Part shown: positions 23,888 to 57,795 of the stretch, piece after piece
Numbering within the stretch: position 1 is the stretch's first letter
Layout of the letters: each line of letters begins with the position of its first letter
Assembly: GCF_026344005.1 (NCBI RefSeq)
Contig: NZ_JAPKNH010000004.1
Coordinates: 62,001-126,000, forward strand
Length of the DNA: 64,000 bases
Reading direction: 5' to 3'
Source: Kaistia terrae
Lineage (GTDB): Bacteria; Pseudomonadota; Alphaproteobacteria; Rhizobiales; Kaistiaceae
Position numbers and translations under genes: made by a program
Notes under the pieces: model-generated
Told to the model about the DNA's origin: nothing
The model's database searches: none
The model's input: only the letters and a program-made list of their open reading frames with translations

Positions 23888-24012
23888 TCACCTCTCCCTG
23901 AGGGAGAGGTCGACGGCCGCAGGTCGGCGGGTGAGGGTTTACGGTCTCACCGGATGGTTCCCTAAACCCTCTCCCGGCTCTTCGAGCCGACCTCTCCCTC
24001 AGGGAGAGGTGA
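23888..24012. repeat. 125-base palindromic element, copy 1
   Basis: Exactly 125 bases, from TCACCTCTCCCTGAGGGAGA to the mirrored end. Each end carries a near-self-complementary CCTCTCCCTGAGGGAGAGG. Internally it has GTGAGGGTTTA ... TAAACCCTCTC (one mismatch in the stem) and a small hairpin GGCTC-TTC-GAGCC. Copies with the same length are at 47844-47968 (same orientation) and 57671-57795 (reverse orientation). Confidence 0.9.
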
Positions 24013-24069
24013 AAGGTCGGAATCGACCCAGATGGAACTTGCTCTAGTTCTCGCTCTCCCTCGGAGGCA

Positions 24070-24206
24070 CCACCCTCGACATGCTGAGGAGGCCCGGAGG
24101 GCCGTCTCGAAGCACGCACTGAAGTGCAAGACCGAAGCGCCGCGCTGCATTGCCCCTGTGCGTCCTTCGAGACGGCTTTCTACGAAAGCCTCCTCAGGAT
24201 GATGGG
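24070..24206. repeat. Palindromic intergenic element, CTGAGG family, copy 2
   Basis: About 137 bases with inverted arms sharing CTGAGGAGGC and GCCGTCTCGAAG. Between these the left arm has GGCCC-GGA-GGGCC and the right arm (read in the same sense) GGCTTTC-GTA-GAAAGCC, so the stem changes while pairing is kept. Related to the element at 16711-16874. Confidence 0.75.
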
Positions 24207-24275
24207 AATGGGTGTCTGGCAGTGTGGCCGGCAGCCCCTGAACTGGCTCATCCAAGCCCAAGAGCCATAGAGGAC

Positions 24276-24300
24276 AAAAAGGGCGGACGAAGCCGCCCTT
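24276..24300 (-). terminator. Rho-independent terminator of the sugar ABC operon
   Basis: Stem AAGGGCGG / CCGCCCTT with a 6-base loop; on the minus strand it is followed by a run of five T. It lies just after the ATPase gene that ends the operon. Confidence 0.8.
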
Positions 24301-24323
24301 GCGTGGCGTGAAGTGCCAAACCC

Positions 24324-25109
24324 TCAGTGCGTGTTCGGCCCGAGTGCGTGCGCCAGTTCCTCGTCGGACATGCCGGTAATAACCCGCTCGACCGCCTCGA
24401 CCGTCGTCTTCTTCGGGTCGATGTCATCGGCCACCACCTTGCCGCGTCGCATCACGACGATGCGGTCGACGACCTGGAAGACGTGGTGGATGTTGTGGGC
24501 GATGAAGATGCAGGAGTGGCCCGAATCCCGCGCCCCGCGCACGAAGCGCAGCACGCCCTGCGTTTCCGCGACGCCGAGATTGTTGGTCGGCTCGTCGAGG
24601 ATGATCAGGTCGCTTTCGAAATGCATGGCGCGGGCGATCGCCACCGCCTGCCGCTCGCCACCCGACAGGGAGCCGATCGGCGTTTCGGGCGGGATGTTCT
24701 TGCTGATGCCGACCTGCTTGAGCAGGTCGCGGGCGACCTGGTTCATCATCTCGTCGTCCATCCGGTTCAGGAAGCGCGGGCCCTTGATCGGCTCGCGCCC
24801 GAGGAACAGGTTTCTCGCGATCGAGAGCTGCGTCACCAGCGCCGAGTCCTGGTAGATCGTCTCGATGCCGGCGGCGATGGCGTCGGTCGTCGACTTCATC
24901 TCGACCTTCTTGCCGCGCACATAGATCGAACCGCTTGTGAGCGGCACGGCGCCCGAAAGCACCTTGATCAGCGTCGACTTGCCGGCGCCATTGTCGCCGA
25001 GCAGGCCGACGATCTCGCGCTCATTGACGGTGAAGGAGACATTTTCCAGGGCCTGGATGCGGCCATAGAACTTGCTGACATTGTCCATGCGGATGAGTGG
25101 TTCGCTCAT
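24324..25109 (-). CDS. Sugar ABC transporter ATPase (FrcA-like, single domain)
   Basis: A 261-residue ATPase with Walker A GDNGAGKSTLIKVL, signature SLSGGERQAVAIARA, Walker B LIILDEPTNNLG and IAHNIHHVF. It has one nucleotide-binding domain, like FrcA of the Sinorhizobium fructose importer and unlike the fused two-domain RbsA. The ATG at 25109 follows the permease stop by 4 bases. It energises the CUT2-type importer encoded with the two genes upstream. Substrate undetermined. Confidence 0.92.
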   Translation of the reverse strand: MSEPLIRMDNVSKFYGRIQALENVSFTVNEREIVGLLGDNGAGKSTLIKVLSGAVPLTSGSIYVRGKKVEMKSTTDAIAAGIETIYQDSALVTQLSIARNLFLGREPIKGPRFLNRMDDEMMNQVARDLLKQVGISKNIPPETPIGSLSGGERQAVAIARAMHFESDLIILDEPTNNLGVAETQGVLRFVRGARDSGHSCIFIAHNIHHVFQVVDRIVVMRRGKVVADDIDPKKTTVEAVERVITGMSDEELAHALGPNTH

Positions 25110-25113
25110 GATC

Positions 25114-26085
25114 TCATGTCCCCGCGTGGTGGCGGCGTTCAAGCCACGAATGCAGGGCCATCATGCCCAGGATGATGGCGCCGATGAAGATGTTGTAGGC
25201 GAGGCCCGGCACGCCGATCAGCACGATGCCGTTGCGCATGACGCGCAGGATGAAGATGCCGAGCACGGTGCCGATGATGGTGCCGCGACCGCCTGTGAGC
25301 GCCGTGCCGCCGATGACGACCATGGCGATGACTTCCAACTCGTAGCCCATGCCGCTGTTCGGATTGGCGGCGGAGGTGCGTACCGACGAGATGATGCCGG
25401 CGAAGCCTGCGAGCGTCGAGCAGAGGATGAACAGCGCCACCTTGGTGCGGTCGACCTTGACGCCGCGCGCCCTTGCGGCGCCCGGATTGCCGCCGGCGGC
25501 CTGGATCCAGTTGCCGACGCGGGTGCGGTTCAGCACATAGCCGAGGATGATGACGGCGGCGATGAACCAGAACAGCGACATGTAGATCCGGAACGGGCCG
25601 ACATAGAAATCACCGACCAGCACCTCGGCCAGCCAGTGACCGCCCGCGTCCCATGTGCGCTGCGGGAAACCGTTGGTGATGAACAGCGCCGTTCCGCGCA
25701 CGACCAGCAGCATGCCGAGCGTGACGAGGAAGGATGGAATCTTGAGCTTGGTGACGAACCAGCCATTGACCAGGCCGATCAGCGCCGCCGTGACGATGGC
25801 GATGATGAAACCGATCTCCATCGGCATCATGCCGCCATTGACGAAAGTCCACATCAGCACCGGCGTGAAGCCGAACACCGAACCGACGGAAAGGTCGAAT
25901 TCGCCCGAGGTCATCAGCAGCGTCATGGCGAGCGCGATGAGGCCGAGTTCGACGGTGAAGGCGAGCGTGTTGCCGATGTTGAGCGGCGACAGGAACTCGG
26001 GATTGATCGCCCAGAAGACGAAGAGTTCGAGGGCAAGAAGAATGAAAGGGCCGAATTCGGGCCTGGCGATCAGGCGTCGCAGCAT
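25114..26085 (-). CDS. Sugar ABC transporter permease (RbsC/FrcC family)
   Basis: A 323-residue integral membrane protein with eight to ten hydrophobic segments (for example FILLALELFVFWAI, VELGLIALAMTLLMTSGEFD). Family signature regions include SGEFDLSVGSVFGF and GGTALTGGRGTIIGTVLG, which contains the ATPase-coupling loop. It forms the membrane channel of a monosaccharide importer. It is separated from the binding-protein gene by 157 bases that hold a strong hairpin. Confidence 0.92.
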   Translation of the reverse strand: MLRRLIARPEFGPFILLALELFVFWAINPEFLSPLNIGNTLAFTVELGLIALAMTLLMTSGEFDLSVGSVFGFTPVLMWTFVNGGMMPMEIGFIIAIVTAALIGLVNGWFVTKLKIPSFLVTLGMLLVVRGTALFITNGFPQRTWDAGGHWLAEVLVGDFYVGPFRIYMSLFWFIAAVIILGYVLNRTRVGNWIQAAGGNPGAARARGVKVDRTKVALFILCSTLAGFAGIISSVRTSAANPNSGMGYELEVIAMVVIGGTALTGGRGTIIGTVLGIFILRVMRNGIVLIGVPGLAYNIFIGAIILGMMALHSWLERRHHAGT

Positions 26086-26196
26086 CGGGGATTTCCTTGA
26101 GGCTCAGACCGTCGATGCCGCGGAGGCGTCGGATGTCACACGCTAGGGAGCCGCGCACGCGAGATCGCGGCGGCAGCAGCTCATGCGGAAGGATAA

Positions 26197-26229
26197 GGGC
26201 ATTCGCGACGGATGCCGTCGCGAATGCCC
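26197..26229 (-). terminator. Perfect hairpin between binding protein and permease genes
   Basis: A 14-base perfect stem, GGGCATTCGCGACG / CGTCGCGAATGCCC, with a 5-base loop, lying 14 bases after the binding-protein stop. No T-run follows, so it more likely stabilises the upstream mRNA end or partly attenuates transcription. This would let the binding protein be made in excess over the membrane parts. Confidence 0.65.
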
Positions 26230-26242
26230 AGGATGCGGGAGC

Positions 26243-27175
26243 CTACTTGCCCGAGAGGATGTCGTCGTAGATCTGCGCGGTGTCCTTTTCGTAGAGGGCG
26301 CCGGTGATCACGTTGAAGCCGGGAGGAATGCCGCCGGCTGCCATGTTGGCGAGCGAGAGGGCGACATAGGAGGTCGCCTGCGGGTCCTGCCACTGGGCGG
26401 CGTTCACATAGCCCTGCAGCACTTCCTGGGTGGTGTCGAGCGAGTTGCCCCAGCCGACGACCGGGATTTCGCCGGCCTTGACGCCGACCTGGTCGAACAC
26501 GCGCTTGATCGAGCCATTGACCAGATCGCCCATGCCGATGATCGCCTTGATCTTGGCGCGGTTTGTGGTCAGGTAATCCGACATGCGGGTGATGATTTCG
26601 CCCTGGTCGAGCGTCGTGTCGGTGACTTCCCAGGTGATGCCGAGCGGCTTGAAGACGGAGGCGATGCCTTCTTCTTCCTGCACGCCATAGGTGGCGCCGG
26701 GAACTTCAACCGGCATCCAGACGAAGTCGCCTGACTTCACATGGCCCTTGTCGACCAGATACTGCGCCCAGGCCTTGCCGAACACGACGTTGTCGCCGCC
26801 GACATAGGCGTCGAACGAAGCCTTCGGGTCGGGGGTGTTGAAGTTGATGATCGGGATCTTGGCGGCGTTGGCTTCCTTGGCGATCTCGACGAGGCTGCCC
26901 GGATCGGGGCTCGACGTGACGATGCCGTCGGCCTTGGCGGCGATGGCGGCGCGCAGGGCTTCCTGCTGCGAGGGCACGTCATTGCCATGGAACGAGGTAT
27001 TGACGGTGTTGCCCGTATCCTTCGCCCACTGCTGCGCACCGGCGAGGAAGTAGGTCCAGACCGGATCGGCCGGCGTGCCATGCGAGACCCAGTAGAAGGT
27101 CTTCGCCTGGGCTGCGGCCGGAATGGCCAAAGCGAGCATCGCGCCCGACAGAAGTATCGTCAGCTTTTTGAACAT
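26243..27175 (-). CDS. Sugar ABC transporter substrate-binding protein (RbsB family)
   Basis: A 310-residue periplasmic protein. The ATG at 27175 has GGGAGGA upstream and begins a clear signal peptide (MFKKLTILLSGAMLALAIPA, cleavage near AAAQA-K). The mature part is a type I periplasmic-binding fold (AAIAAKADGIVTSSPDPGSL, PIINFNTPDP, VVGWGNSLDTTQEVLQGYV). The frame is open for 79 codons further upstream, not protein-like. First gene of the operon; the ligand is probably a monosaccharide or polyol but I cannot name it. Confidence 0.92.
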   Translation of the reverse strand: MFKKLTILLSGAMLALAIPAAAQAKTFYWVSHGTPADPVWTYFLAGAQQWAKDTGNTVNTSFHGNDVPSQQEALRAAIAAKADGIVTSSPDPGSLVEIAKEANAAKIPIINFNTPDPKASFDAYVGGDNVVFGKAWAQYLVDKGHVKSGDFVWMPVEVPGATYGVQEEEGIASVFKPLGITWEVTDTTLDQGEIITRMSDYLTTNRAKIKAIIGMGDLVNGSIKRVFDQVGVKAGEIPVVGWGNSLDTTQEVLQGYVNAAQWQDPQATSYVALSLANMAAGGIPPGFNVITGALYEKDTAQIYDDILSGK

Positions 27176-27439
27176 GGTCGTCCTCCCGTTGAACTTTTTC
27201 GTTCGTGGACCACGGCTATGGCTGCCGCTTCGCCGCTTTGCACGGCGCGCTTGCGGCCCGGTCGAGAGGGTTTCTCGCCATGGCCGCAGCGGTCTCGGAG
27301 TGGAGACTGACACAACTAACGCAGGCGTCAACCGGCGCTGCGACAGATTGTCCAAAGAAATGACATCGCTGTCATCGGCAGGGCGCAAAGGTTTTTTTGG
27401 CCAGCCCGCCAAGAGCGGCAGCCCATGCGGCCTGAGATC

Positions 27440-28717
27440 TCAGATCCTGTCGCGCAGGGCGTACCAGCTCATGCCGGCGACCAGCGCCGGCCAGCGCAAA
27501 AGCTTGCCGCCCGGGAAGCGCGGGCAGGGCAGGGAGGCGAAGGCGTCGAGCTTGCCGGGGTTGCCGAGAATCGCTTCGGCGAGGATTTTGCCGCCGAATG
27601 GCGCCAGCGCGACGCCCTGGCCGGAATAGCCGGATGCCGCGTAGACGCCGCTGCGCACCTTGCGCAGGAAGGGCAGGCGGTTGACCGTGACGGCGAGCGT
27701 GCCGCCCCAGGCGTGGTCGATCCGCGTCCGCTCCAGCTGCGGATAGATTTTCAGCAGATGCCGCCGCACGAAGGCGAAGATGTCGGCCGGATCGGAGCGC
27801 GAATAGGTCTCGCCGCCGCCGAACAGGATGCGGCCGTCCGGCGTCGGTCGCCAGTAATAGACGACGAAGCGCGAGTCCGAGACGGCCTCGCCGCCGGGGA
27901 TCAGGCCACCCGGCCCGCCGGCGCCGATCGGCTCGGTGGTGAGGATGAAGTTCTTGATCGGCATCGCCCGGGTTTCGACCTCCTGGTCGATGCCGTCGAG
28001 CAGGCCGTTGCCGGCGAGAATGATGGTTTCGGCCTTGATCCGCCCGCGCAGCGTTTCGATCACCGGCGTCTCGCCGTCGACGAGCTTTGTCGCCGCCGTG
28101 CCTTCATGGATGCGCGCGCCCGCCTTGGCGGCGGCGCGGGCGAGCCCCTGTGCGAATTTGAGCGGGTGCAGATGACCGGCCGTGCGATCGAGCCGGCCGC
28201 CGAAATAGCTGTCCGTGCCGATCATCGGCGCCAACTGCTCGCGGTCGATCCATTCGGCCGGGGCATAGCCATAGTCGCGGTTCAGCTTTTCGACATAGTG
28301 GCGCTCTTCGTCGACGAGGCGCGGCTTGTGAACCGTCTCGATCAGGCCGGGCCGCCATTCGGCGTCGATCTGGTGCTTGTCGATCAACTGATGGACGAGC
28401 GCCTTCGCTTCTTCGGCAAGGCCCCACAGTTCATGCGCCGCCGGTTTGCCGAGGCGCTTTTCCAGAAAATCCTGGTCGCGGCGCTGGCCGGTATGCAACT
28501 GGCCGCCATTGCGCCCCGAGGCGCCCCAGCCGATTTTTTCGGCCTCGATCAGGACGGTGTCGATGCCCGCTTCGGCCAGATGCAGCGCCGCCGACAGGCC
28601 GGTATAGCCGCCGCCGACGATGACGACATCGGCGCGCGTATCGCCGTCGAGCGGCGGAAAGGCGAGCGTCTGGTCGGCGGTATCCGCATACCAGGAAGGG
28701 GCGTGCGGCTGGCTCAT
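27440..28717 (-). CDS. puuB: FAD-dependent oxidoreductase, gamma-glutamylputrescine oxidase type
   Basis: A 425-residue DAO-family flavoenzyme. FAD-binding motif ADVVIVGGGYTGLSAALHLAEAG at about residues 28-50, then GWGASGRNGGQLHTGQR, characteristic of PuuB/glycine-oxidase-like members. PuuB oxidises gamma-glutamylputrescine to the aldehyde. It follows a putrescine aminotransferase by 7 bases and a PuuA-like synthetase upstream, supporting a role in polyamine breakdown. The sequence alone would also allow another amine substrate. Confidence 0.85.
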   Translation of the reverse strand: MSQPHAPSWYADTADQTLAFPPLDGDTRADVVIVGGGYTGLSAALHLAEAGIDTVLIEAEKIGWGASGRNGGQLHTGQRRDQDFLEKRLGKPAAHELWGLAEEAKALVHQLIDKHQIDAEWRPGLIETVHKPRLVDEERHYVEKLNRDYGYAPAEWIDREQLAPMIGTDSYFGGRLDRTAGHLHPLKFAQGLARAAAKAGARIHEGTAATKLVDGETPVIETLRGRIKAETIILAGNGLLDGIDQEVETRAMPIKNFILTTEPIGAGGPGGLIPGGEAVSDSRFVVYYWRPTPDGRILFGGGETYSRSDPADIFAFVRRHLLKIYPQLERTRIDHAWGGTLAVTVNRLPFLRKVRSGVYAASGYSGQGVALAPFGGKILAEAILGNPGKLDAFASLPCPRFPGGKLLRWPALVAGMSWYALRDRI

Positions 28718-28724
28718 GCGCGCC

Positions 28725-30107: not shown

Positions 30108-30190
30108 GAGCGGGTCCGGTTGCGGTATTCCCAACATCGCCGCCCGGGCTTTCGGCTCGGGCAGCGCAGGCGCGGCAAGCTGCGGAAGTA

Positions 30191-31666: not shown

Positions 31667-31683
31667 CCATGCGACTTCCGGTC

Positions 31684-32903: not shown

Positions 32904-32913
32904 TCAATGGACA

Positions 32914-40109: not shown

Positions 40110-42086
40110 ATGACGCCTGCGATCGCTTCGTTCCCTTCCGAGCAGCCCTTGTGGACGCCGTCAGCGGCGCGTCTCGCCGATCATCCGATGACGCATTTTC
40201 GCGCAGCGGCGGCGGAACGGTCCGGATTGTCGCTTCCTGACCATGATGCCTTGCATCGGTGGTCGATCGACGACCGGGCGACGTTCTGGGATCTGGTCTG
40301 GGATTTTTGCGGTGTCGAAGGCGACAAGGGCGAGCGGCTGCTGATCGATGGCGACCGCATGCCGGGGGCGCAGTTCTTTCCCGATGCGACGCTGAATTTC
40401 GCCGAAAACCTGCTCAAGGTTTCGGGCGATGACGACGCGCTCGTCTTCTGGGGCGAAGAGCGGGTCAAGCGACGGCTAAGCTGGGACGAACTTCACGCGC
40501 TCGTCTCCCGGCTGCAGCAGGCACTGGAAGCTGCCGGCGTCAAGGCTGGCGACCGCGTCGCCGCCATGATGCCCAACATGCCGGAAACGATTGCCGCCAT
40601 GCTGGCGACCGCCTCGATTGGCGCTGTGTGGTCGTCCTGCTCGCCGGATTTCGGCCCGAATGGTGTTCTCGATCGCTTCGGCCAGATCGAACCGACCGTC
40701 TTCTTCGCCTGCGACGGCTATTACTATGGCGGCAAGACCATCGATATCGCGGCGAAACTGGCCGAGATCGTGCCGGGTCTGCCGACGGTGCGAAAAACCG
40801 TCATCGTGCCCTATATCGGCACGGCGGAAGCGACGGCGTCGACGCTGGCCAACGGCGTTTCGCTCGACGGCTTCTTTTCGCCCTTTTTGGCGCGGCCGGT
40901 CGAGTTCGCCGCCATGCCCTTCGCCCATCCGCTCTACATCCTGTTTTCGTCGGGGACGACGGGCGTGCCGAAATGCATCGTCCATTCGGCCGGCGGCACG
41001 CTGTTGCAGCATCTGAAGGAGATCCATCTCCATTCCGGCATCGGCGAGGAAGACCGGCTTTTCTATTTCAGTACCTGCGGCTGGATGATGTGGAACTGGC
41101 TCGCTTCCGGCCTCGCCACCGGCGCGACTCTGCTGCTCTATGATGGCTCGCCCTTTCATCCGAACGGCAACATCCTGTTCGACTATGCCGATGCCGAGCA
41201 GATGACCTTCTTCGGCACCTCGGCCAAGTTCATTGATGCTCTCCACAAGTCCGGCCTGAAGCCGATCGAGACGCATGATCTGGGCTCGCTGAAGATGATG
41301 AGCTCGACCGGCTCGCCGCTGGCGCCGGAAAGCTTTTCCTTCGTCTATGAGAGCATCAAGCACGACATCCATCTCGCTTCGATCTCCGGCGGCACCGACA
41401 TCGTTTCCTGCTTCGTGCTCGGCATTCCGGGCAAGCCGGTCTGGAAGGGCGAGATCCAGGGACCGGGCCTCGGCCTTGCCGTCGATGTCTGGGACGAGGA
41501 CGGCAAGTCGCTCGCCAGCGGCAAGGGCGAGCTGGTCTGCTGCAAGGCGTTCCCCGCCATGCCGATCGGCTTTTTCAAAGATGCGGACGGCAGCCGCTAT
41601 CACGCGGCCTATTTCGACCGCTTCGACAATGTCTGGTGCCATGGCGATTTTGCCGAATGGACGGCGCATGGCGGGCTGATCATCCATGGCCGTTCGGATG
41701 CGACGCTCAATCCCGGTGGCGTGCGCATCGGCACCGCCGAGATCTACAACCAGGTTGAACAGGTTGCCGACGTGCTGGAGGCGCTGGCCATCGGCCAGGA
41801 TTGGGACAGCGACGTTCGTGTGGTGCTGTTCGTGCGCCTGCGCGAGGGCGTGGCTCTCGATGCGGCGCTGGAAAAACAGATCCGTGACAAGATCCGCACC
41901 GGCGCTTCGCCGCGCCATGTTCCGGCGAAGATCATCGCCGTCACCGACATACCGCGCACAAAGTCCGGCAAGATCGTCGAACTGGCGGTGCGCGAGATCG
42001 TGCATGGCCGTCCGGTGAAAAACCAGGAAGCGCTGGCAAACCCGGAAGCGTTGGCGCTGTTCCGCGATTTGCCTGAGTTGGCGTGA
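40110..42086 (+). CDS. Acetoacetyl-CoA synthetase
   Basis: A 658-residue adenylate-forming enzyme activating acetoacetate, linked to ketone-body or polyhydroxybutyrate reuse. AMP-binding signature YILFSSGTTGVPKCIVHSAG; GGTDIVSCF; C-terminal lysine in RTKSGKIVELAVREIVHGR. Full-length similarity features (WSIDDRATFWDLVWDFCGVE; RMPGAQFFPDATLNFAENLL) distinguish it from acetyl-CoA synthetase. The ATG at 40110 with GGAGAGG upstream gives the family length; the frame is open 66 codons earlier but without similarity. Confidence 0.93.
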   Translation: MTPAIASFPSEQPLWTPSAARLADHPMTHFRAAAAERSGLSLPDHDALHRWSIDDRATFWDLVWDFCGVEGDKGERLLIDGDRMPGAQFFPDATLNFAENLLKVSGDDDALVFWGEERVKRRLSWDELHALVSRLQQALEAAGVKAGDRVAAMMPNMPETIAAMLATASIGAVWSSCSPDFGPNGVLDRFGQIEPTVFFACDGYYYGGKTIDIAAKLAEIVPGLPTVRKTVIVPYIGTAEATASTLANGVSLDGFFSPFLARPVEFAAMPFAHPLYILFSSGTTGVPKCIVHSAGGTLLQHLKEIHLHSGIGEEDRLFYFSTCGWMMWNWLASGLATGATLLLYDGSPFHPNGNILFDYADAEQMTFFGTSAKFIDALHKSGLKPIETHDLGSLKMMSSTGSPLAPESFSFVYESIKHDIHLASISGGTDIVSCFVLGIPGKPVWKGEIQGPGLGLAVDVWDEDGKSLASGKGELVCCKAFPAMPIGFFKDADGSRYHAAYFDRFDNVWCHGDFAEWTAHGGLIIHGRSDATLNPGGVRIGTAEIYNQVEQVADVLEALAIGQDWDSDVRVVLFVRLREGVALDAALEKQIRDKIRTGASPRHVPAKIIAVTDIPRTKSGKIVELAVREIVHGRPVKNQEALANPEALALFRDLPELA

Positions 42087-42127
42087 GGGGGGCGGTCGCT
42101 CCAGGAGCAGCGACTGCCACCCACTGT

Positions 42128-42227
42128 CCGTCATCCTCGCGTAGGCGAGGATCCATGCAGCCGTGGTTTAGGGAGTCTCGCACTTCAACCCGGCTGAATG
42201 GATCCCGGGTCTTCGCCCGGGATGACG
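42128..42227. repeat. Palindromic intergenic element, GTCATCC family, copy 2
   Basis: 100 bases between acetoacetyl-CoA synthetase and xseA. Left arm hairpin CCTCGC-GTAG-GCGAGG, right arm CCCGGG-TCTTCG-CCCGGG, joined to GGATCCAT and ATGGATCC and framed by CCGTCATCC ... GGATGACG. May serve both converging genes as a terminator. Confidence 0.85.
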
Positions 42228-42327
42228 CCGAGTTTGGGGCTGGCCGCGGCGCTTCGGTGCCACGACAAGCCGCCCTTTTGATAGTTTCGACCTTCACGTC
42301 TCCCGTTGGGGAGTGGATTCGTCCGAA

Positions 42328-43878
42328 CTAGAACAGGCTCTCCTGCGTCGACGGCTTGGGCTTGGCGGCCTTTTTCGGACGGGGTTCGGCAGCGCCGCCG
42401 GCGGCAATCGCGCCGATCTTGCCGTCCTGGAACTCGATCGTCAGCGCGTCGCCGCTGGCAACCTTCGAGGCCGTGCGCACGGTCTTGCCCTCGGCATCCG
42501 TCACCAGCGCGAAGCCGCGCGCCAGGACGCTACGATAGGAGAGTGTTTCGGCCAGCCGCCAGGCGCGGTCGAGCCGGTCTCGGTTCTTCTCGACGATGCG
42601 GATGAAGGCGCGATTGCCCCGGCTGTCGATCTCGGTGATCTGTACCGCGCCGCGCGAAAGCCGTTGCGCGATAGGCTCGATGCGGAGGCGGCCGGCGATG
42701 CGGGCAAAGCCGGCGCGCTTGCGCTCGGCATGAACCTCTAAGGCACGCCCCTGACGCTCGCCCAGTGCGTTCAAACGATCGCGGGCGCGAAGGGTAAGGC
42801 GGTCAAGCGAGGCGGGCGACAGTCGACCTGCGCTGCGCTCCAGCTTGCCGCGGTGCGCCAGCGTGTTGGCGCCGAGCGCGCGGCCGATCCGGGCGGCCAG
42901 TTCGTCAAAGGCGCGGCGCGGAATGGCGAGCAGATCGTCGAGGCGCGGCAGCGCACGAGTGGCGGCGCGAAGCTCGCGGCGGCGGCCTTCGACATGGCGC
43001 AGCATCGCGCCATCAAGCCTGCGGCCGAGATCGCCGACCGAGCCGATCAGTTCCGAACGAACCGGCACGGCCATTTCGGCAGCACCCGTCGGCGTTGGCG
43101 CGCGCAGATCCGAGACGAAATCGATCAGCGTCGTGTCGGTCTCGTGGCCGACGGCGGAGATCAGCGGGATCGTCGAGGCGGCGACGGCGCGCACGACGAT
43201 TTCCTCGTTAAAGCCCCACAGGTCCTCGAGGCTGCCACCACCGCGTGCAACAATCAGCAAATCGGGGCGCGGGATGGCGCCGCCGGGCGTCAGCGCGTTG
43301 AAGCCGGCGATGGCCGCGGCCACTTCGGCGGCCGAGGTTTCGCCCTGCACGCGCACCGGCCAGACCAAAACCTGGACCGGAAAACGGTCGGCGAGGCGGT
43401 GCAGGATGTCGCGGATGACCGCGCCGGTCGGCGAGGTGACGACGCCGATGACGCGCGGCAGATAGGGGATCGGCCGCTTGCGGTCGGAATCGAACACGCC
43501 TTCGGCGGCCAGCTTGCGGCGGCGTTCCTCAAGCAGCGCCATCAGCGCGCCGACACCGGCAGGCTCCAGCGACTCGATGACGATCTGGTACTTTGAAGAG
43601 CCCGGGAAGGTGGTCAGCTTGCCGGTGGCGATGACCTCCATGCCCTCTTCTGGCCGGAAACGCAGCTTGCCAAAACTTCCCTTCCAGATCACCGCCTCGA
43701 TCTTCGAGCGATCGTCCTTCAGCGCGAAATAGGCGTGGCCAGAGGAGTGCGGCCCGCGATAGCCCGAAATCTCGCCGCGCACGCGCACGAAGCCGAAAGC
43801 GTCCTCGACGGTGCGCTTCAGCGCCATCGAGATTTCGGAGACGGAGTATTCGCCGGCGTTGTGGACGGGATCGGTCAA
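42328..43878 (-). CDS. xseA: Exodeoxyribonuclease VII large subunit
   Basis: A 516-residue nuclease subunit degrading single-stranded DNA, with XseB (not in the window). N-terminal OB-fold ([37 protein letters not shown]) and catalytic domain ([59 protein letters not shown]). A long Arg/Ala-rich helical segment follows. The start codon is TTG at 43878; no ATG is available without losing the conserved N-terminus. A Lys/Pro-rich tail ends the protein. Confidence 0.94.
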
Positions 43879-46114: not shown

Positions 46115-46139
46115 CATGTCCCGGCACGTCCGGGACATG
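46115..46139 (+). promoter_or_regulatory. Perfect stem-loop over the fbpB start
   Basis: CATGTCCCGG / CCGGGACATG, a 10-base perfect stem with a 5-base loop, contains both candidate ATG codons (46116 and 46137) of the permease gene and the GGGA before the second. In mRNA it would hide the translation start, lowering permease synthesis relative to the binding protein, or make it conditional. Confidence 0.6.
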
Positions 46140-47831
46140 AGCGATTCTGCGATTACCCCGCCGCTGATCGCATCGCGACCTGCGCGTCCGGATCGCCTCT
46201 GGCGGTTTGGCTCCGCGTTGATCGCCCTTCTGGCCCTAGCGCCCATTGGCGGGCTCGTCTTCTTCGCCTCGCGCGGTTCCGGTGAACTCTGGCCGCACTT
46301 GATCGCCAATGTCCTGCCCGTCGCGGCGCGTACGACCGCGCTGCTGCTCGTTGGCGTCGGCATCCTCGTCACCGTTCTGGGCATCGGCACGGCCTGGCTG
46401 GTGACGGCCTGCCGCTTTCCCGGCCGTCGCGTGTTCGAATGGGCGCTGCTGCTGCCGCTTTCGGTGCCGAGCTACGTCATGGCCTTCGCCTATCTCGACG
46501 TGGTGCATCCGGTCGGCCCGCTGCAAACCAGCCTGCGCAACCTGTTCGGCATCACCGATCCGCGTGGCCTGCCGTTTCCAGAAATCCGCTCGCTCGGCGG
46601 CGCGATCCTGCTGCTCGGCCTGATCCTCTACCCTTACGTCTATCTGCCTGTGCGGGCGCTGTTCGTCATGCAGTCGGCCTCGATGCTGGAAGCCTCGCGC
46701 ACGCTGGGCGCTGGCCGCTTTCGCGCCTTCTGCACGGTCGCGCTGCCGCTGGCGCGTCCCGCCGTCGCGGTCGGCGTCAGCCTGGCGCTGATGGAGGCGC
46801 TGAATGATATCGGCGCGTCGGAATTCTTGGGCGTTCGCACGTTGACGGTGGCGATCTACACGACCTGGGTGACGCGCTCGTCGATTGAAGGCGCAGCGCA
46901 GATTGCGCTCGTCATGCTGGCGATCGTCTTCGCGCTGGTGCTGCTGGAACGCCTCGGCCGACGCGGCATGAACTATTCCGCCCCGCGCGGAAATAGCCAG
47001 GCCATGGCGCAACCGCTGAAGGGCGGTGCTGCCCTGCTTGCAATGCTCGCCTGCGCGCTGCCCATCCTGCTCGGCTTCGTCGTGCCGGCGAGCTATCTCG
47101 TCGTCTCGGCGGCGCGGCGCATCCGCCTCGGCGGGCTGCCGGCCGATCTCTGGGTCTGGACCGGCAACAGCGTGTTCTTCGCCGCCATCGCCTCGATCCT
47201 GACGCTCGCCATCGGCCTGTTTCTCGCCACGGCCGGCCGCATGTCGCGGCGAAAATCGCTGCACGGGATGATCCGGCTTGCCGGCATCGGCTATGCTATT
47301 CCCGGCACGGTGCTGGCCGTCGGCCTGCTGGTGCCGATCGCCGGCCTCGACAACTGGATCGCCGATGCTGTGAAGAGCGTCTGGGGCCGCTCGCCGGGGC
47401 TGATCCTGATGAGTTCCGGCGCGGCGCTGATCCTCGCCTATTGCCTGCGTTTCCAGGCGATCTCGATTGGTGGCATCGAGGCTGGCTTCACGCGCATTTC
47501 GCCCTCGATCGACATGGCTGCGCGCAGCCTTGGCGCGGGCACGCCCCGGCTTTCGGGCGGCATTCATGTGCCGCTGCTTTCGCCGGCCATCGCCGCCGCC
47601 GGACTGCTCGTCTTTGTCGATTGCATGAAGGAATTGCCGGCCACGCTGCTGCTGCGCCCGTTCAATTTCGAGACGCTGGCGACCTACGTCTACGGCGAGG
47701 CGGCGCGCGGCACCTATGAGGACGGCGCGGTCGCCGCCCTTGTCATCGTCATCGTCGGCATGCTGCCTGTAGCGCTGCTGGCGCGGGCCGGAACCCGCGA
47801 GCGGCGACCGCCGTCGATCGGCGTCAGCTAG
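46116..47831 (+). CDS. fbpB: Ferric iron ABC transporter permease, fused double domain
   Basis: A 571-residue permease carrying two transmembrane domains in one chain, as in FbpB/SfuB. About twelve hydrophobic segments; coupling-loop regions at MLEASRTLGAGRFRAFCTVA in the first half and DMAARSLGAGTPRLSGGIHV in the second. Start is either ATG 46116 or ATG 46137; both lie within a perfect stem-loop. No FbpC ATPase follows; the next item is a repeat and a TPP enzyme on the other strand, so the ATPase must be elsewhere. Confidence 0.92.
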   Translation: MSRHVRDMSDSAITPPLIASRPARPDRLWRFGSALIALLALAPIGGLVFFASRGSGELWPHLIANVLPVAARTTALLLVGVGILVTVLGIGTAWLVTACRFPGRRVFEWALLLPLSVPSYVMAFAYLDVVHPVGPLQTSLRNLFGITDPRGLPFPEIRSLGGAILLLGLILYPYVYLPVRALFVMQSASMLEASRTLGAGRFRAFCTVALPLARPAVAVGVSLALMEALNDIGASEFLGVRTLTVAIYTTWVTRSSIEGAAQIALVMLAIVFALVLLERLGRRGMNYSAPRGNSQAMAQPLKGGAALLAMLACALPILLGFVVPASYLVVSAARRIRLGGLPADLWVWTGNSVFFAAIASILTLAIGLFLATAGRMSRRKSLHGMIRLAGIGYAIPGTVLAVGLLVPIAGLDNWIADAVKSVWGRSPGLILMSSGAALILAYCLRFQAISIGGIEAGFTRISPSIDMAARSLGAGTPRLSGGIHVPLLSPAIAAAGLLVFVDCMKELPATLLLRPFNFETLATYVYGEAARGTYEDGAVAALVIVIVGMLPVALLARAGTRERRPPSIGVS

Positions 47832-47843
47832 GCCCTGCCTTTT

Positions 47844-47968
47844 TCACCTCTCCCTGAGGGAGAGGTCGACGCACGCAGTGCGGCGGGTGAGGGTTTACGG
47901 CCTCACCGGATTGTTTCCTAAACCCTCACCCGGCTCTTCGAGCCGACCTCTCCCTCAGGGAGAGGTGA
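47844..47968. repeat. 125-base palindromic element, copy 2
   Basis: Identical in length and orientation to the copy at 23888. It carries GCAC-GCA-GTGC and GGCTC-TTC-GAGCC hairpins and a perfect 11-base inner stem GTGAGGGTTTA / TAAACCCTCAC. Located between the converging fbpB and TPP-enzyme genes. Confidence 0.92.
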
Positions 47969-47996
47969 AGGACGGAGCCTCAGGCGCTGGATCCAG

Positions 47997-49691
47997 TCAT
48001 CTGCGCGACACCGGCTTCACCTTCAGGCTCTTGCCCTTCAGTTCATCCAGGGTAGCGGAGGGAGAGATCGCCTGCGGATCGACCTTCACATGCACGATGG
48101 CCGGCTTTCCGCTTTCCTGCGCCCGCGCAAACGCCGGCCAGAAATCCTCGGTCCGCTCCACCGTCTCGCCGTGCCCGCCATAGGCGCGGGCAAAGTCGGC
48201 GAAGTCCGGATTGACCAGCTTGGTCGCCTCGACGCGGTCGGGATAGCTGCGCTCCTGATGGGCGCGGATGGTGCCATACATGCCGTTGTCGACGACGATC
48301 ACGAGGATTGCCGCACCGTCCTGCACGGCGGTGCCGAATTCGTTGCTCGTCATCTGGAAGCAGCCGTCGCCGGCAAAGGCGATCACCGTCCGTTCGGGAT
48401 AGCGCAGCTTGGCGGCGATCGCCGCCGGCACGCCGTAGCCCATTGAACCGGAGGTCGGCGCCAACTGGGTCTTCGATCCCTGGAAGCGGTGATAGCGATG
48501 CACCCAGTTGGCATAGTTACCCGCGCCATTGGTGAGGATCGCATCCTTCGGCAGGTTCTCACGCAGGGTCCGCATGACCGCGCCCATCTCCACGCCGCCG
48601 ACGTCGCGCGGCTTCGGGTCGGACCAGTCGCGATAGGACGCGTTGGCGGCGCGGGTCTCGGCGCTCCAGGGGATGGTCGCCGGCGGATGCACCGCTTCGA
48701 GTTGGGCGGCGAAGCCGTTTGGCGTGGCGTTGATGGCGAGCGTCGGGCGATAGACGCGGCCGAGTTCGTCCGATCCGCCATGCACATGCACCAGCGTCTG
48801 CTTCGGCTGCGGAATATCCAGCAGCGTATAGCCGGAGGAGGGCATTTCGCTCATTCGGCCGCCGACGAGGATGAGTAGATCGGCTTCCTTGACCCGCTTG
48901 GCCAGCGCCGGGTTGATAGCGATGCCGACCTCACCGGCGAAATTCGGATGTTCGTGGTCGAACAGGCCCTGGCGGCGCAGCGAAACGCCGACCGGCAGGT
49001 CGAAGCGCTCGGCAAAGCGCTGCATCGAGTTGATCGCCTGGTCGCTCCAGCGCGAGCCGCCGAGCACCAGAAGCGGCCGTTCGGCCTTCCAGAGCATCTT
49101 CTGCAATTGCGCCGTCTGGGTCAGGCCCGGATAGGTCTCGATCGGCTCCGACGCGCCGACGGAAGGAACGCTGGAAAGGTCACGCAGCATATCTTCCGGC
49201 AGCGCCAGCACGACCGGGCCGGGGCGGCCGGACGTGGCGACATGGAACGCGCGGGAGAGGAATTCCGGGATGCGCGACGCGTCGTCGATCTCCGCCACCC
49301 ATTTGACGACGTCGCCGAACATCCGCCGGTAGTCGATCTCCTGGAAGGCCTCGCGCTCCCGCATCTCGCGTCCGACCTGGCCGATGAACAGGATCATCGG
49401 CGTTGAATCCTGCATGGCGACATGCAGGCCGGCGGCGGCGTTGGTCGCGCCCGGTCCGCGCGTGACAAAGCAGATGCCGGGTTTTCCCGCCATCTTGCCC
49501 CAGGCTTCCGCCATCATCGCCGCGCCGCCCTCATGCCGGGCCACGGTCACGGGAATAGCCGAATCATGCAGCGCGTCGAGGACGTCGAGATAGCTTTCGC
49601 CGGGGACGCAGAAGACACGCTCGACACCATTGGCTTCCAGCGCCTCGACAATGAGATGGCCGCCGGTGCGGGAAGGGAGGACGTCTGACAT
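47997..49691 (-). CDS. Thiamine-diphosphate-dependent enzyme, acetolactate synthase-like
   Basis: A 564-residue TPP enzyme. N-terminal VEALEANGVERVFCVPGESY and the catalytic glutamate in VARHEGGAAMMAEAWGKM; TPP/Mg motif GDGCFQMTSNEFGTAVQDGA...DNGMYG near the C-terminus. Members include acetolactate synthase, benzoylformate decarboxylase, sulfoacetaldehyde acetyltransferase and oxalyl-CoA decarboxylase. No regulatory subunit or branched-chain gene is adjacent, so a catabolic role is more likely. Exact substrate unknown. Confidence 0.87.
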   Translation of the reverse strand: MSDVLPSRTGGHLIVEALEANGVERVFCVPGESYLDVLDALHDSAIPVTVARHEGGAAMMAEAWGKMAGKPGICFVTRGPGATNAAAGLHVAMQDSTPMILFIGQVGREMREREAFQEIDYRRMFGDVVKWVAEIDDASRIPEFLSRAFHVATSGRPGPVVLALPEDMLRDLSSVPSVGASEPIETYPGLTQTAQLQKMLWKAERPLLVLGGSRWSDQAINSMQRFAERFDLPVGVSLRRQGLFDHEHPNFAGEVGIAINPALAKRVKEADLLILVGGRMSEMPSSGYTLLDIPQPKQTLVHVHGGSDELGRVYRPTLAINATPNGFAAQLEAVHPPATIPWSAETRAANASYRDWSDPKPRDVGGVEMGAVMRTLRENLPKDAILTNGAGNYANWVHRYHRFQGSKTQLAPTSGSMGYGVPAAIAAKLRYPERTVIAFAGDGCFQMTSNEFGTAVQDGAAILVIVVDNGMYGTIRAHQERSYPDRVEATKLVNPDFADFARAYGGHGETVERTEDFWPAFARAQESGKPAIVHVKVDPQAISPSATLDELKGKSLKVKPVSRR

Positions 49692-51198: not shown

Positions 51199-51216
51199 GG
51201 CTAGCGCAAGAATCGG

Positions 51217-51249
51217 AAACGGCGCGGATTCTCTCCGCGCCGTTTTCGT
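51217..51249 (+). terminator. Terminator after the YXWGXW gene
   Basis: Stem AAACGGCGCGGA / TCCGCGCCGTTT (perfect, 12 bases) with a 5-base loop followed by a short T-rich end. It lies 18 bases after the stop and faces the beta-mannosidase gene from the other side, so it may act in both directions. Confidence 0.8.
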
Positions 51250-51278
51250 TTGTGGGCCTCGCCGTGCCGGGATGGCGT

Positions 51279-54080: not shown

Positions 54081-55052
54081 ATGACCTCGAAACTTGATCA
54101 GCTCAAAGCCATGACCGTTGTCGTTGCAGACACCGGCGATCTTGAAGCCATCAAGACCTATCGTCCGGTCGACTGCACGACGAATCCGTCGCTGGTGCTC
54201 AAAGCCGCCGAACTGCCGGCCTATCAGGACGTCATCGAGAGCGCGATCTCCTGGGGCCGCAAGCAGGGCGGTACGCAGGACGCCATCGCTGGTCATGTCG
54301 CCGATCGCCTGGCTGTCGCTTTCGGCGCCGAAATGTCGAAGCTCGTCCCGGGCCGCATCTCGACCGAAGTCGATGCCGACCTCTCCTTCGACGTCGAAGC
54401 CTCGGTCCAGCGCGCGCGCGACATCATCGCTGCCTATGACGCCCTCGGCGTTCCGCGCGAAAAGATCCTGGTCAAGCTCGCCTCGACCTGGGAAGGCATC
54501 CGCGCCGCCGCGATCCTTCAGAAGGAAGGCATCGACTGCAACCTGACGCTGCTGTTCTCGCTCGCCCAGGCCGCAGCCTGCGCCGAGGCCGGCGTGTTCC
54601 TGATTTCGCCCTTCGTCGGCCGCATCCTCGACTGGCACGTCAAGGCTTCCGGCAAGACGTTCGAGCCGGAAGAAGATCCGGGCGTCCTCTCGGTTCGCCA
54701 GATCTACAGCTACTACAAGCAGCGCGGCATCGAGACCGTCGTCATGGGCGCTTCGTTCCGCTCGACGGGCGAAATCGAAGCCCTGGCCGGTTGCGACCGC
54801 CTGACGATTGCTCCGGCTCTGCTCGAGAAGCTCGCGGCCGATAACGGCACGCTGGTGCGCAAGCTCGACGCAAGCAACACCGGCGAGAAGATCGCGACAA
54901 TTGCCTCGGACGAGAAGAGCTTCCGCTGGGCCATGAACGAAGACCAGATGGCGACCGAGAAGCTCTCGGAAGGCATCCGCATGTTCGCCAAGGACCTGCG
55001 CGCGCTCCGTACGCTGATCACCAAGCGCCTGGAGACCGGCGTCCCGGCCTGA
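54081..55052 (+). CDS. tal: Transaldolase
   Basis: A 323-residue pentose-phosphate enzyme exchanging dihydroxyacetone units (sedoheptulose-7-P plus glyceraldehyde-3-P). Catalytic lysine in [27 protein letters not shown] near the N-terminus and [20 protein letters not shown] in the C-terminal part identify the TalB class. GGAGGAG precedes the ATG. Monocistronic: a terminator follows 22 bases later. Confidence 0.96.
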
Positions 55053-55074
55053 TCGATCCTGGTTTGAAGACAGG

Positions 55075-55108
55075 AGGCCGGTCGCCCCGTGGGCGGCCGG
55101 CCTTTTTT
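55075..55108 (+). terminator. Rho-independent terminator of tal
   Basis: Stem AGGCCGGTCGCCC / GGGCGGCCGGCCT (one G-U pair) with a 3-base loop followed by six T. Confidence 0.9.
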
Positions 55109-55191
55109 GTTTCGCGGCGCAGGTATAGCGGAAGTGGGCTGACCCTTCCCCAAACGTCGGCTGCCCGCCCTGCGCAGCCTGAGGAGAGCGC

Positions 55192-56436
55192 ATGCGCATC
55201 GGCATTATCGGGTCGGGGATCGTCGGTGTCGCGACCGCCCATGCGCTGCTCGACGAGGGACACGTCGTCGACCTGATCGACCGCGAAGGCATCGCGGCCG
55301 GTATCTCCGCCGGCAATGCCGGATGGATCGCTCATCTCGACATCCTGCCGCTTGCCTCGCCAAAAGCCTGGCGCAACCTGCCGCGCTGGGCGCTCGACCC
55401 GCTTGGACCGCTGGCGATCCGGCCGGCCTATCTGCCGGCTCTGGCGCCCTGGCTCGCCCGCTTCGTCGCGGCGAGCCGCCCGTCGCGCATCGAAGCTTCG
55501 ACGCAGGCGATCGCGGCGCTGAATGGCCGGGCCTTGCCGGCCTGGCAGAAGCGGCTGGCGGCGCTCGGCCTCGATCATCACCTTCGGGAGAGGGGGCTGC
55601 TCTCCATCTGGGCCGATGCGCGCGGCTATCACGCCGCGTTGCCGCTGTTCGAGCGTCAGCGCAGCCTCGGCATGGAGGTCGAGACGCTCGATGCGGCGGC
55701 GCTGCATGCGCTGGAGCCGGCACTCGGCGCCCGCGCCGTGGCGGGCGCGCTGTATCCGACGGGTTGCCATGTTTCCGATCCGCTCGATTTTACCCGCGCA
55801 CTTGGCGAGGCAGCGATCGCCCGTGGTGCGCAGGAGCGAAAATTCGAGGCGGTCGAAATTCGCGCCGGCGGTGGCGAGGTGGCGATCCGCACCTCGTTCG
55901 ATTCGCTGGCGCTCTATGACCGCATCGTCGTGGCGACCGGCGCCTGGTCGAAGCCGCTCGCCGCATCGCTTGGCGACAAGATCCCGCTCGACACCGAGCG
56001 CGGCTACAATGTCACCCTGCCTTCCGGCAGCCTCGGCCTGACACGTCCCGTCATGTTCGAAGGCGAAGGTTTCGTCACCACGCCGCTCGATACCGGCGAC
56101 CGTGTCGGCGGCAGCGTCGAGTTCGCCGGACTGGAAGCCGCCCCCAATTTCAGGCGCGTCGATGCGATCCTCGGCAGGCTGAAGCGCTATCTGCCGGATG
56201 CCGATCTTTCCGGGGGCACGCGCTGGATGGGCTTTCGACCGTCGACGCCGGATTCGCTGCCTGTCATCGGTCGGGCGACGCGCGATCCGCGCATCGTCTA
56301 TGCCTTCGGCCATGCCCATCACGGCCTTACCCAGGCGGCGGCGACGGCGGAACTCGTCGCCGGCCTGATCGCCGACCGACGGCCGGAATTCGACCTCGCT
56401 CCCTATTCCCCCGAGCGCTTTGCAAAAAGGTTCTGA
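55192..56436 (+). CDS. FAD-dependent oxidoreductase, DadA-like
   Basis: A 414-residue DAO-family flavoenzyme. The FAD motif IGIIGSGIVGVATAHALLDE is at the N-terminus, and ISAGNAGWIAHLDILPLASP matches the D-amino acid dehydrogenase (DadA) subgroup; the C-terminal GRATRDPRIVYAFGHAHHGL completes the flavin site. Such enzymes oxidise D-amino acids via the respiratory chain. GGAGAG precedes the ATG. No alanine racemase gene is next to it, so the substrate is open. Confidence 0.87.
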   Translation: MRIGIIGSGIVGVATAHALLDEGHVVDLIDREGIAAGISAGNAGWIAHLDILPLASPKAWRNLPRWALDPLGPLAIRPAYLPALAPWLARFVAASRPSRIEASTQAIAALNGRALPAWQKRLAALGLDHHLRERGLLSIWADARGYHAALPLFERQRSLGMEVETLDAAALHALEPALGARAVAGALYPTGCHVSDPLDFTRALGEAAIARGAQERKFEAVEIRAGGGEVAIRTSFDSLALYDRIVVATGAWSKPLAASLGDKIPLDTERGYNVTLPSGSLGLTRPVMFEGEGFVTTPLDTGDRVGGSVEFAGLEAAPNFRRVDAILGRLKRYLPDADLSGGTRWMGFRPSTPDSLPVIGRATRDPRIVYAFGHAHHGLTQAAATAELVAGLIADRRPEFDLAPYSPERFAKRF

Positions 56437-56612
56437 GCTTCTTCTTCGATGGAGGATCGCGAGCCGTTCCGGACGAGCCTTCGGCTTGTGGACGGCGCGG
56501 GCCAAGCGCCTCAACTTGCAAAGAAGTGTGATGTCCGCGACATCGGACTCGTAGCGTGAGGGGCGCACCTCGGCTAGAATCGCCCTCCCGACGCCAATCT
56601 GGATCTGCCGCC

Positions 56613-57644
56613 ATGCGCGCCCTCGTTCTCGAAGAAAAGCTGAAGCTCTCGCTCCGTGATATCGACCTGCCGCTCGAGGTCGGTCCGCGCGACGTTCGCA
56701 TCGCCATCCACACGGTCGGCGTCTGCGGCTCGGACGTGCACTATTACACCTATGGCGGGATCGGCCCGTTCATCGTCAAGGAGCCGATGGTGCTGGGCCA
56801 TGAGGCCGCCGGCACGGTCGTCGAGATCGGTTCGGAAGTGAAGTCGCTCAAGGTCGGCGACCGCGTCTGCATGGAGCCGGGCGTTCCCGACCTGACCTCC
56901 AAGGCTTCCAAGCTCGGCATCTACAATGTCGATCCGAGCGTCACCTTCTGGGCGACGCCGCCGGTGCATGGCTGCCTGACGCCGGAAGTCGTTTTCCCGG
57001 AATCCTTCACCTACAAGCTGCCGGACAATGTCTCGTTTGCTGAAGGCGCGATGGTCGAGCCCTTCGCCATCGGCATGCAGGCGGCGACCAAGGCCAAGAT
57101 CGTGCCCGGCGACACGGCGCTGGTGATCGGCGCCGGCCCGATCGGCATCATGGTGGCGCTGGCGGCGCTGGCAGGCGGTTGCAGCCGCGTCTATATCTCC
57201 GATCTGGTCAACGAGAAGCTGGCGATTGCCGGCCGCTATGAAGGCGTCATTCCGGTCAATGTCCGCGAGCAGGACCTGAAGGCGAAGATCGCCGCCGAGA
57301 CGGAAAACTGGGGCGTCGATATCGTGTTCGAGGCTTCGGGCAGCCCGCGCGCCTATGACGGTATCTTCAACTTCGTTCGTCCCGGCGGCGCCATCGTCTT
57401 CGTCGGCCTGCCGGTCGAGCCGATCGCGCTCGACATCGTCTCGGCCTCGGCCAAGGAAGTGCGGATGGAGACGGTGTTCCGATATGCCAACGTCTTCGAT
57501 CGCGCGCTGGCACTGATCGCGTCCGGCAAGGTCGACCTGAAGCCGCTGATCACCGGCACTTACGATTTCGAGGAGTCGATCGCTGCGTTCGAGCGCGCCG
57601 CATCGGCCAACCCGAACGACGTGAAGCTGCAGATCACCCTCTGA
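56613..57644 (+). CDS. Polyol dehydrogenase, zinc-dependent (xylitol/sorbitol type)
   Basis: A 343-residue medium-chain dehydrogenase. Catalytic zinc ligands in [24 protein letters not shown] and [12 protein letters not shown]-binding [20 protein letters not shown]. The usual structural-zinc cysteine cluster is absent and replaced by [20 protein letters not shown], as in animal sorbitol dehydrogenase and bacterial xylitol dehydrogenase. It oxidises a polyol to a ketose. ATG 56613 begins the conserved MRALVLEEK; the frame is open 19 codons earlier without support. Confidence 0.9.
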
Positions 57645-57670
57645 TTTGTGCGTGGCACCCGCTGCGTGCT

Positions 57671-57795
57671 TCACCTCTCCCTGAGGGAGAGGTCGGAGCG
57701 AAGCTCCGGGTGAGGGTTTAGGAAACGATCCGGTGAGGCCGTAAACCCTCACCCGCCGCCCTTCGTGCGTCGACCTCTCCCTCAGGGAGAGGTGA
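57671..57795. repeat. 125-base palindromic element, copy 3 (reverse orientation)
   Basis: Same 125-base length as the other two, but inverted. Read in their sense, its hairpin is GGAGC-TTC-GCTCC instead of GGCTC-TTC-GAGCC: two base pairs changed with pairing preserved. The other small hairpin is GCAC-GAA-GGGC with one mismatch. It lies between the converging polyol dehydrogenase and PRC-barrel genes. Confidence 0.92.

Follow-up and report, generated by a model that had tools for sequence, protein, structure and literature searches.

A palindromic intergenic element of Kaistia terrae as a probable inverted pair of intrastrand-triplex modules

We analysed a stretch of 64,000 nucleotides from Kaistia terrae (the window; contig NZ_JAPKNH010000004.1, positions 62,001 to 126,000) that carries three copies of a palindromic element. 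Judged from its sequence, the element is likely to be a tail-to-tail (inverted) pair of modules of the BoxC/PIT type joined by a short linker, and each module probably folds as an intrastrand DNA triplex. According to Holder et al. 2015, the intrastrand triplex motif goes back to Hoyne 2000. On its G-rich strand, each half of the element has in order a pyrimidine arm (C-arm) CCTCTCCC, 3 nt, a purine arm (G-arm) GGGAGAGG, a mini-hairpin and the sequence GGTGAGGG. This last part, the putative third strand, mirrors the adjoining purine arm and is not complementary to it; one window half has GGAGAGGG in its place. The second loop of the module (loop 2) is 16 or 20 nt long in the window halves and is itself a hairpin. 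A pattern for such half-modules matched six sites in the window, two halves in each of the three copies, and none in 100 dinucleotide shuffles.

The initial annotation placed the copies at 23888-24012, 47844-47968 and 57671-57795, the third being inverted, and we found them there together with the end palindromes, the inner GTGAGGGTTTA/TAAACCCTCAC and both kinds of small hairpin that it described; the right inner arm of copy 1 reads CCCTCTCCC. Its length of 125 bp holds for the window copies but not as a rule, since the first 30 copies of the same genome measure 122-127 bp between these ends, and some copies in relatives have longer linkers. Conservation over 133 Kaistia copies puts the edges of the element at CTTCACC and GGTGAAG, giving a unit of about 131 bp. 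All three window copies lie between convergent open reading frames (ORFs), and their parts are as follows.

23885..24015, + strand: element copy 1, between convergent ORFs 22783-23853(+) and 24324-25142(-)
23891..23937, + strand: copy 1 left module; C-arm 23891-23898, loop 1 23899-23901, G-arm 23902-23909, mini-hairpin 23910-23929 (loop GCA), third strand 23930-23937
23967..24009, - strand: copy 1 right module; C-arm 24002-24009, G-arm 23991-23998, mini-hairpin 23975-23990 (loop GAA), third strand 23967-23974 (GGAGAGGG)
47841..47971, + strand: element copy 2, between convergent ORFs 46116-47831(+) and 47997-49691(-)
47847..47893, + strand: copy 2 left module; C-arm 47847-47854, G-arm 47858-47865, mini-hairpin 47866-47885 (loop GCA), third strand 47886-47893
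47923..47965, - strand: copy 2 right module; C-arm 47958-47965, G-arm 47947-47954, mini-hairpin 47931-47946 (loop GAA), third strand 47923-47930
57668..57798, - strand: element copy 3 (inverted), between convergent ORFs 56556-57644(+) and 57876-58271(-)
57674..57716, + strand: copy 3 module with the shorter mini-hairpin; C-arm 57674-57681, G-arm 57685-57692, mini-hairpin 57693-57708 (loop GAA), third strand 57709-57716
57746..57792, - strand: copy 3 module with the longer mini-hairpin; C-arm 57785-57792, G-arm 57774-57781, mini-hairpin 57754-57773 (loop GAA), third strand 57746-57753

The evidence that carries this reading is the relation between third strand and purine arm. We collected 58 full copies from the same genome and 88 from eight other Kaistia genomes (146 copies, 292 halves), as well as 27 further copies from Bradyrhizobium, Caulobacter, Microvirga, other Hyphomicrobiales and one planctomycete record, these taxa being a minimum for the range of the element; exact duplicates were removed and 23 matches covering fewer than 115 model positions were set aside. 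Copies thus came from 9 of 14 Kaistia genomes, own included. As for the others, a 2-kb query had no match in G003 and just 2-7 matches each in G006, G010, G012 and G013, gene and element matches counted together. All eight third-strand bases form allowed purine-motif triads in 245 of the 292 Kaistia halves, where seven halves that could not be parsed are scored as misses.

A sister type of module (GA type) has the arms CTTCTCCC/GGGAGAAG and the third strand GATGAGGG. We counted the pairing of arms with third strands in 80 proteobacterial genomes, hand-picked from a sample of 398 genomes of the phylum and comprising mostly carriers with some non-carriers; 105 of the 398 contain the exact form of the first (GG) type, and the control gave 0. 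GG-type arms occurred with GGT in 2543 cases and with GAT in 21, and GA-type arms with GAT in 728 and with GGT in 3, two of which are run-ons into a second motif. Unmatched forms thus make up 24 of 3295. Both matched types are present in 33 genomes across 15 family codes, and there 986 and 704 modules were matched against 11 and 2 unmatched. A limitation of the Fisher test on this table is that it counts copies as independent, though they are related. Read as a mirror image of the purine arm, the GA-type third strand departs from it at 1 of 9 positions, by an allowed T*A-T triad; read as a direct repeat, it departs at 3 of 9. The relation is therefore that of a mirror, for which strand exchange via Watson-Crick pairing offers no explanation.

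A second position points the same way, more weakly: GGGGGAGG arms occurred with GGTGGGGG in 31 cases and with GGTGAGGG in 11, and GGGAGAGG arms occurred with GGTGGGGG in 14 as compared to the 2543 above. At the T*A-T position, T was replaced by A, which also gives an allowed triad, in 31 cells and by C in 4. As an observation on single elements, some in G033 and G322 have one GG-type module facing one GA-type module, so that both third-strand variants stand in one element. Among the modules listed, and judged by eye, all five GG-type modules of G322 and six of seven in G033 are faced by a GA-type module, in G322 within about 110 bp.

These counts could also arise by descent alone if there were two or three module types, each of one origin and widely copied, with arm and third strand matched because they are inherited as a block. 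Only two positions were tested, and at the second the match holds in just 31 of 42 cases. Copies also multiply within lineages, as indicated by an excess of nearest neighbours from the same genome (50.3 of 126 copies, 28.2 expected). Against this, loop 1, loop 2 and the kind of loop 2 (few bases or a hairpin) vary widely between families while the matched bases stay matched. Both types coexist in the 33 genomes and are mixed in single elements, yet unmatched forms are rare, and at the T*A-T position the allowed substitution is favoured by 31 to 4. We therefore consider descent without a triplex an unlikely explanation.

The mini-hairpins were parsed in 267 of the 292 Kaistia halves. Among right hairpins of standard length (n = 125), the two variable pairs are Watson-Crick in 122 and 120 cases; among left hairpins (n = 117), they are so in 111 and 112. 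Shuffling, which takes no account of relatedness, gave means of 60.8, 49.9, 66.8 and 79.4 for the four pairs, with maxima of 78, 67, 78 and 91. Other families have different stems that are also complementary. These data uphold the proposal that compensatory stem changes reflect selection on a folded molecule. In the window, pairing was also said to be intact in the two kinds of small hairpin with swapped stem pairs, and largely kept in another hairpin. Of the latter, the copy 3 form GCAC-GAA-GGGC has one A.G mismatch and its pairing is thus incompletely kept; an A.G mismatch at one left-stem position occurs in nearly all Kaistia left hairpins.

On the G-rich strand the loop of the mini-hairpin is GNA in 221 of the 267 parsed halves, with all four bases at N. 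The reverse form, TNC, is missing from the 25 commonest Kaistia loops and occurs once in a hand-selected set from other families. In hand-selected sequences of other genomes GNA loops were found in 22 of 40 and 34 of 48 hairpins; duplicates and some other strings were dropped from this set, as were the entries of G322, G336, G152, G395, G180, G382 and G000 in the first list. GNA and GNNA loops give extraordinarily stable DNA mini-hairpins (PMC4686876; here and below, statements on published work refer to the sections of the cited papers that were covered). What is new here, going by the sequence comparison, is that loop 2 is a mini-hairpin and mostly GNA-looped. In one Microvirga copy (L106) one half is short-looped and the other has a hairpin as its loop, which ties the short-loop and hairpin-loop forms together.

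We then consider where the copies lie relative to genes. These results come from our own gene calls by a codon model; its training set was the window, and it was used on other genera as well. Of 58 own-genome copies, 31 are in convergent and 19 in tandem gaps with none in divergent gaps; 7 have no gene on one side and 1 partially overlaps a called gene start. As a comparison, the gaps of the window are 8 convergent, 31 tandem and 7 divergent. Other named Kaistia loci (n = 38) comprise 7 convergent, 22 tandem, 2 divergent and 4 unplaced copies with 3 partial overlaps. An earlier, cruder gene caller, now superseded, had given 3 convergent, 22 tandem, 2 divergent and 7 overlaps for these 38 copies. 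Copies from Bradyrhizobium and other Hyphomicrobiales (n = 16) are convergent in 10 cases, tandem in 4 and unplaced in 2, and the Caulobacter copies (n = 10) are evenly split between convergent (5) and tandem (5). Only 2 of 105 placed copies are in divergent gaps. A preference for convergent gaps is thus clear in the own genome and weak in other Kaistia. The earlier proposal on position is partly upheld, in that the copies are intergenic and often at gene ends.

The convergent bias of the own copies, without any in divergent gaps, is what would be expected of a structured RNA in the 3' untranslated region (UTR), where the convergent genes on either side would transcribe both strands, with the hairpins shielding mRNA 3' ends or terminating transcription bidirectionally. 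The compensatory mini-hairpin stems and a strong predicted RNA fold (z -13.5) are also in keeping with this. The predicted DNA fold, by contrast, is equally significant (z -14.7), and other Kaistia copies are mostly tandem (22 of 38, with 7 convergent). GNA loops are on the G-rich strand of both halves, so that any transcript would have one GNA and one UNC loop. Base pairing in RNA predicts no mirror relation between third strand and purine arm, which favours a DNA triplex, and according to PMC4666352 RNA does not form purine-motif triplexes. Thus, of the earlier proposal of selection on a folded molecule, the constraint stands; that the molecule is DNA is more likely, since GGTGAGGG mirrors the purine arm and changes with it, as a purine-motif DNA triplex would predict. 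A structured 3' UTR RNA appears improbable to us.

Selection might instead act on the cruciform (palindrome) or on a G-quadruplex alone, with the third strand irrelevant to both. The ends do pair over about 26 bp in the predicted fold and runs of G are frequent. However, in all 123 Kaistia copies where both inner hairpins were parsed the two are different, and the Bradyrhizobium copies and many of those from Caulobacter have a left arm that is unlike the right one in loop or type. Such unlike halves weaken end-to-end pairing and keep each local hairpin. Inverted pairs in E. coli are likewise reported to be unequal (PMC4666352), and unequal halves may serve to avoid a long perfect palindrome. 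The GA/GAT type interrupts the GGG runs that a quadruplex needs. Together, these data make this explanation very improbable.

The element is abundant. The own genome (5.6 Mb) has about 100 elements, with 218 end hairpins at up to 2 mismatches (reversed control, 0) and 183 half-modules of all loop kinds (87 + 96), and at least 40 copies are at least 90% identical (best 40 scored of 161 candidates). Beyond the core, outer inverted arms CTAGAGCAAGATCCATCT/AGATGGATCTTGCTCTAG are seen within 75 bp on both sides of 11 of the 58 own copies, on one side of 11 and on neither side of 36 (examples are L012, L014 and L020); random window positions had them on one side in 29 of 2000 cases and on both sides in 0. 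By eye, the TAG of the outer arm may in places serve as the stop codon of the upstream gene. A longer unit including outer arms (CTAGAGCAAGATCC...) was considered and dropped, because most matches in relatives end at the core; we treat the arms as a neighbour or an extension. A second long palindromic repeat (CTGAGGAGGCCC...GCCTCCTCAGGATGATGG) adjoins copy 1 at 24080-24190, and similar sequence occurs at a different site in G011 and also beside copy L014.

We compared the sites of the window copies over about 37 kb aligned with five relatives: K. adipata (G001), K. defluvii (G004), K. granuli (G007), G005 and G011. At the copy 1 site none of the five has a complete element (the gap itself does not align); G011 has a short ACCTCTCCC hairpin, and by eye there are possible traces in K. 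defluvii and K. granuli. Copy 2 is absent from K. defluvii and G005, whose two stop codons overlap there, and its site is an inversion breakpoint in K. adipata, K. granuli and G011. K. adipata has a full copy 3 in the same orientation, K. defluvii and G005 have a single hairpin of it, and weaker traces remain in G011 and perhaps K. granuli. The single-hairpin remnants (L165:17292-17321 and L167:17207-17236) suggest deletion between two palindromic ends. Conversely, the window has no element at 30125-30190, and K. defluvii and G005 each carry one there, in opposite orientations. Several species carry the linker flipped with respect to the halves, and two copies at unrelated places (L005 and L007) have identical cores. 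Gain, loss, opposite orientations, flipped linkers and identical cores together indicate a family that has moved or recombined on the time scale of the genus. As side observations, the block between gaps 42086-42328 and 47817-48020 is inverted in K. adipata, K. granuli and G011 relative to the window, K. defluvii and G005, and short-loop BoxC-like motifs are found at one breakpoint of that inversion in G011. At 42120-42240 the window has two facing GTCATCC...GGATCC-type repeats, which we take to be, perhaps, CGTC-tagged palindromes of alphaproteobacteria.

High copy number, palindromic form, intergenic position and decay to single hairpins are also traits of repetitive extragenic palindromes and bacterial interspersed mosaic elements (REP/BIME) moved by a REP-associated tyrosine transposase. 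A REP-type (Y1) transposase had been suggested as one possible mover in the initial annotation. A search with the Y1_Tnp profile (PF01797; E 0.001) found no match in the own genome or any of the 14 Kaistia genomes, and the control matched 5 of 14 known genomes. Furthermore, the end hairpins are flanked by TTCACC and TCG, and the GTAG tag is absent at the hairpin foot, so that a REP/BIME origin is scarcely credible. As a trait of miniature inverted-repeat transposable elements (MITEs), we looked for target-site duplication and saw no clear case among 133 copies. Direct repeats of at least 4 bases near the ends were slightly in excess (6 of 133 copies; 2.5 in shuffled pairs) and those of at least 5 bases occurred in 2 (0.8 in shuffled pairs); repeats of 2-3 bp are below detection in this comparison.

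For the triplex that we favour, we propose the following fold. The pyrimidine arm would pair with the purine arm, the mini-hairpin with its mostly GNA loop would turn the chain, and the GGTGAGGG strand would fold back along the purine arm as an antiparallel purine-motif third strand (G*G-C, A*A-T and T*A-T). It would arise on the G-rich strand of single-stranded DNA, at replication or behind RNA polymerase, and may form in the cell. Related BoxC motifs form a triplex in vitro by circular dichroism (CD) and nuclear magnetic resonance (NMR) and stop polymerase (PMC4666352). The fold may maintain the family by stalling polymerases and prompting template switching, which would account for solo hairpins and flipped linkers; alternatively, it may be the substrate of a mobilising enzyme. 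We prefer to think that gaps between gene ends are where such a polymerase roadblock would be best tolerated.

Several observations weigh against this fold. At the second position, GGGGGAGG arms are unmatched in 11 of 42 cases; K. hirudinis (G008) and G002 have GGGGGAGG arms facing GGAGAGGG third strands, an A*G-C mismatch that is found in 27 of 334 cells at that position over all taxa. The matched types may come from few ancestors and be inherited as blocks. Caulobacter copies among the matches listed in a scan of named genomes have GNA loops in 0 of 12 halves, unlike many of the listed modules of family code f13, which obey the GNA rule. By eye, the C-rich strand could instead form a pyrimidine-motif triplex with one mismatch, and Watson-Crick pairing suffices to fold the whole element well, be it DNA or RNA. 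Finally, when a BoxC site was probed with dimethyl sulfate (DMS) in E. coli cells, no protection was seen (PMC4666352).

Neither the hairpin-looped pair nor the co-change of third strand and arm is described in the literature covered by a partial search of open-licence papers. Among repeats that are described, the CGTC-tagged REPs are palindromic, common in alphaproteobacteria and likewise lack an association with a transposase gene; they have a different tag, and a third strand is not mentioned in the sections covered (PMC3733652). The Rhizobium-specific intergenic mosaic elements (RIME; Osteras 1995), compared by description only, are likewise rhizobial and intergenic. The Bradyrhizobium repeats Br-REP1 and Br-REP2 lie in 3' UTRs, and the printed consensus of Br-REP2 includes the 15-mer CGGCTCTTCGAGCCG, which forms one mini-hairpin here; the printed consensuses are without CCTCTCCC/GGGAGAGG arms and without GGTGAGGG (PMC5082802).

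At gathering thresholds Rfam had no match in the window, and weak matches of the element to miRNA families were judged to be artefacts of long hairpins. The model of the Whalefall-1 RNA (RF01762) aligns over its full 56 positions with each half of copies 1 and 2, at 20-24 bits; with a gathering score of 37 bits, the element is no member under the Rfam rule. Whalefall-1 has the same order of parts (arm-loop-arm, then a second hairpin) and a conserved unpaired tail like GGGUGAGG. In its printed consensus, judged by eye, the tail mirrors the purine arm over 6 bases. It is listed as certainly RNA and known from whale-fall metagenomes only (Weinberg et al. 2010, PMC2864571). We suggest from this likeness that Whalefall-1 may be the same DNA module.

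We give even credence to a broader reading, in which the natural three-way covariation reflects selection for an intrastrand DNA triple helix across much of the Proteobacteria, the modules form a large and mostly unrecognised class with a GNA DNA mini-hairpin as the turn and an arrangement in inverted pairs of unlike halves, and Whalefall-1, if not other curated structured RNAs too, is in truth a DNA fold of this kind. The role of DNA triplexes in living cells has so far been argued mostly from biophysics. If the reading is true, co-change of three strands across unrelated genomes would be comparative evidence of the kind by which RNA helices have long been established, and thousands of natural variants of a DNA triple helix would be available to test. 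Covariation within a repeat would then be no proof of RNA by itself.

The closest known system is the BoxC/PIT/TM motif. The initial annotation could not match the element to a described one, and this needs revising, because the element is a hairpin-looped, paired form of that motif. Its end palindrome string had one match in open-licence papers (PMC4666352). According to that source, BoxC/PIT/TM_ECO shares the order pyrimidine arm, loop, purine arm, loop, third strand, with nearly identical core letters; it is also intergenic, has inverted pairs with unlike members in E. coli and small deletions that leave a hairpin are reported for it. Triplex formation in vitro was demonstrated there for TM_ECO only (PMC4666352). 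All six window halves have the mirror relation of the motif, that is, allowed R-motif triads with one mismatch permitted. The arms of the motif, CCCTCNCCC / GGGNGAGGG, are 9 nt and those here are 8 nt, flanked by A and T. Loop 2 of the motif is 3 nt, with searches at 1-6 or 0-10 nt (PMC4666352), as compared to the mini-hairpin of 16-20 nt here; short-loop forms of the module are also present elsewhere in the own genome. Peculiar to the present element as compared to BoxC/PIT/TM are the fixed pairing into a 131-bp unit, the GA/GAT sister type and the co-change of third strand and arm.

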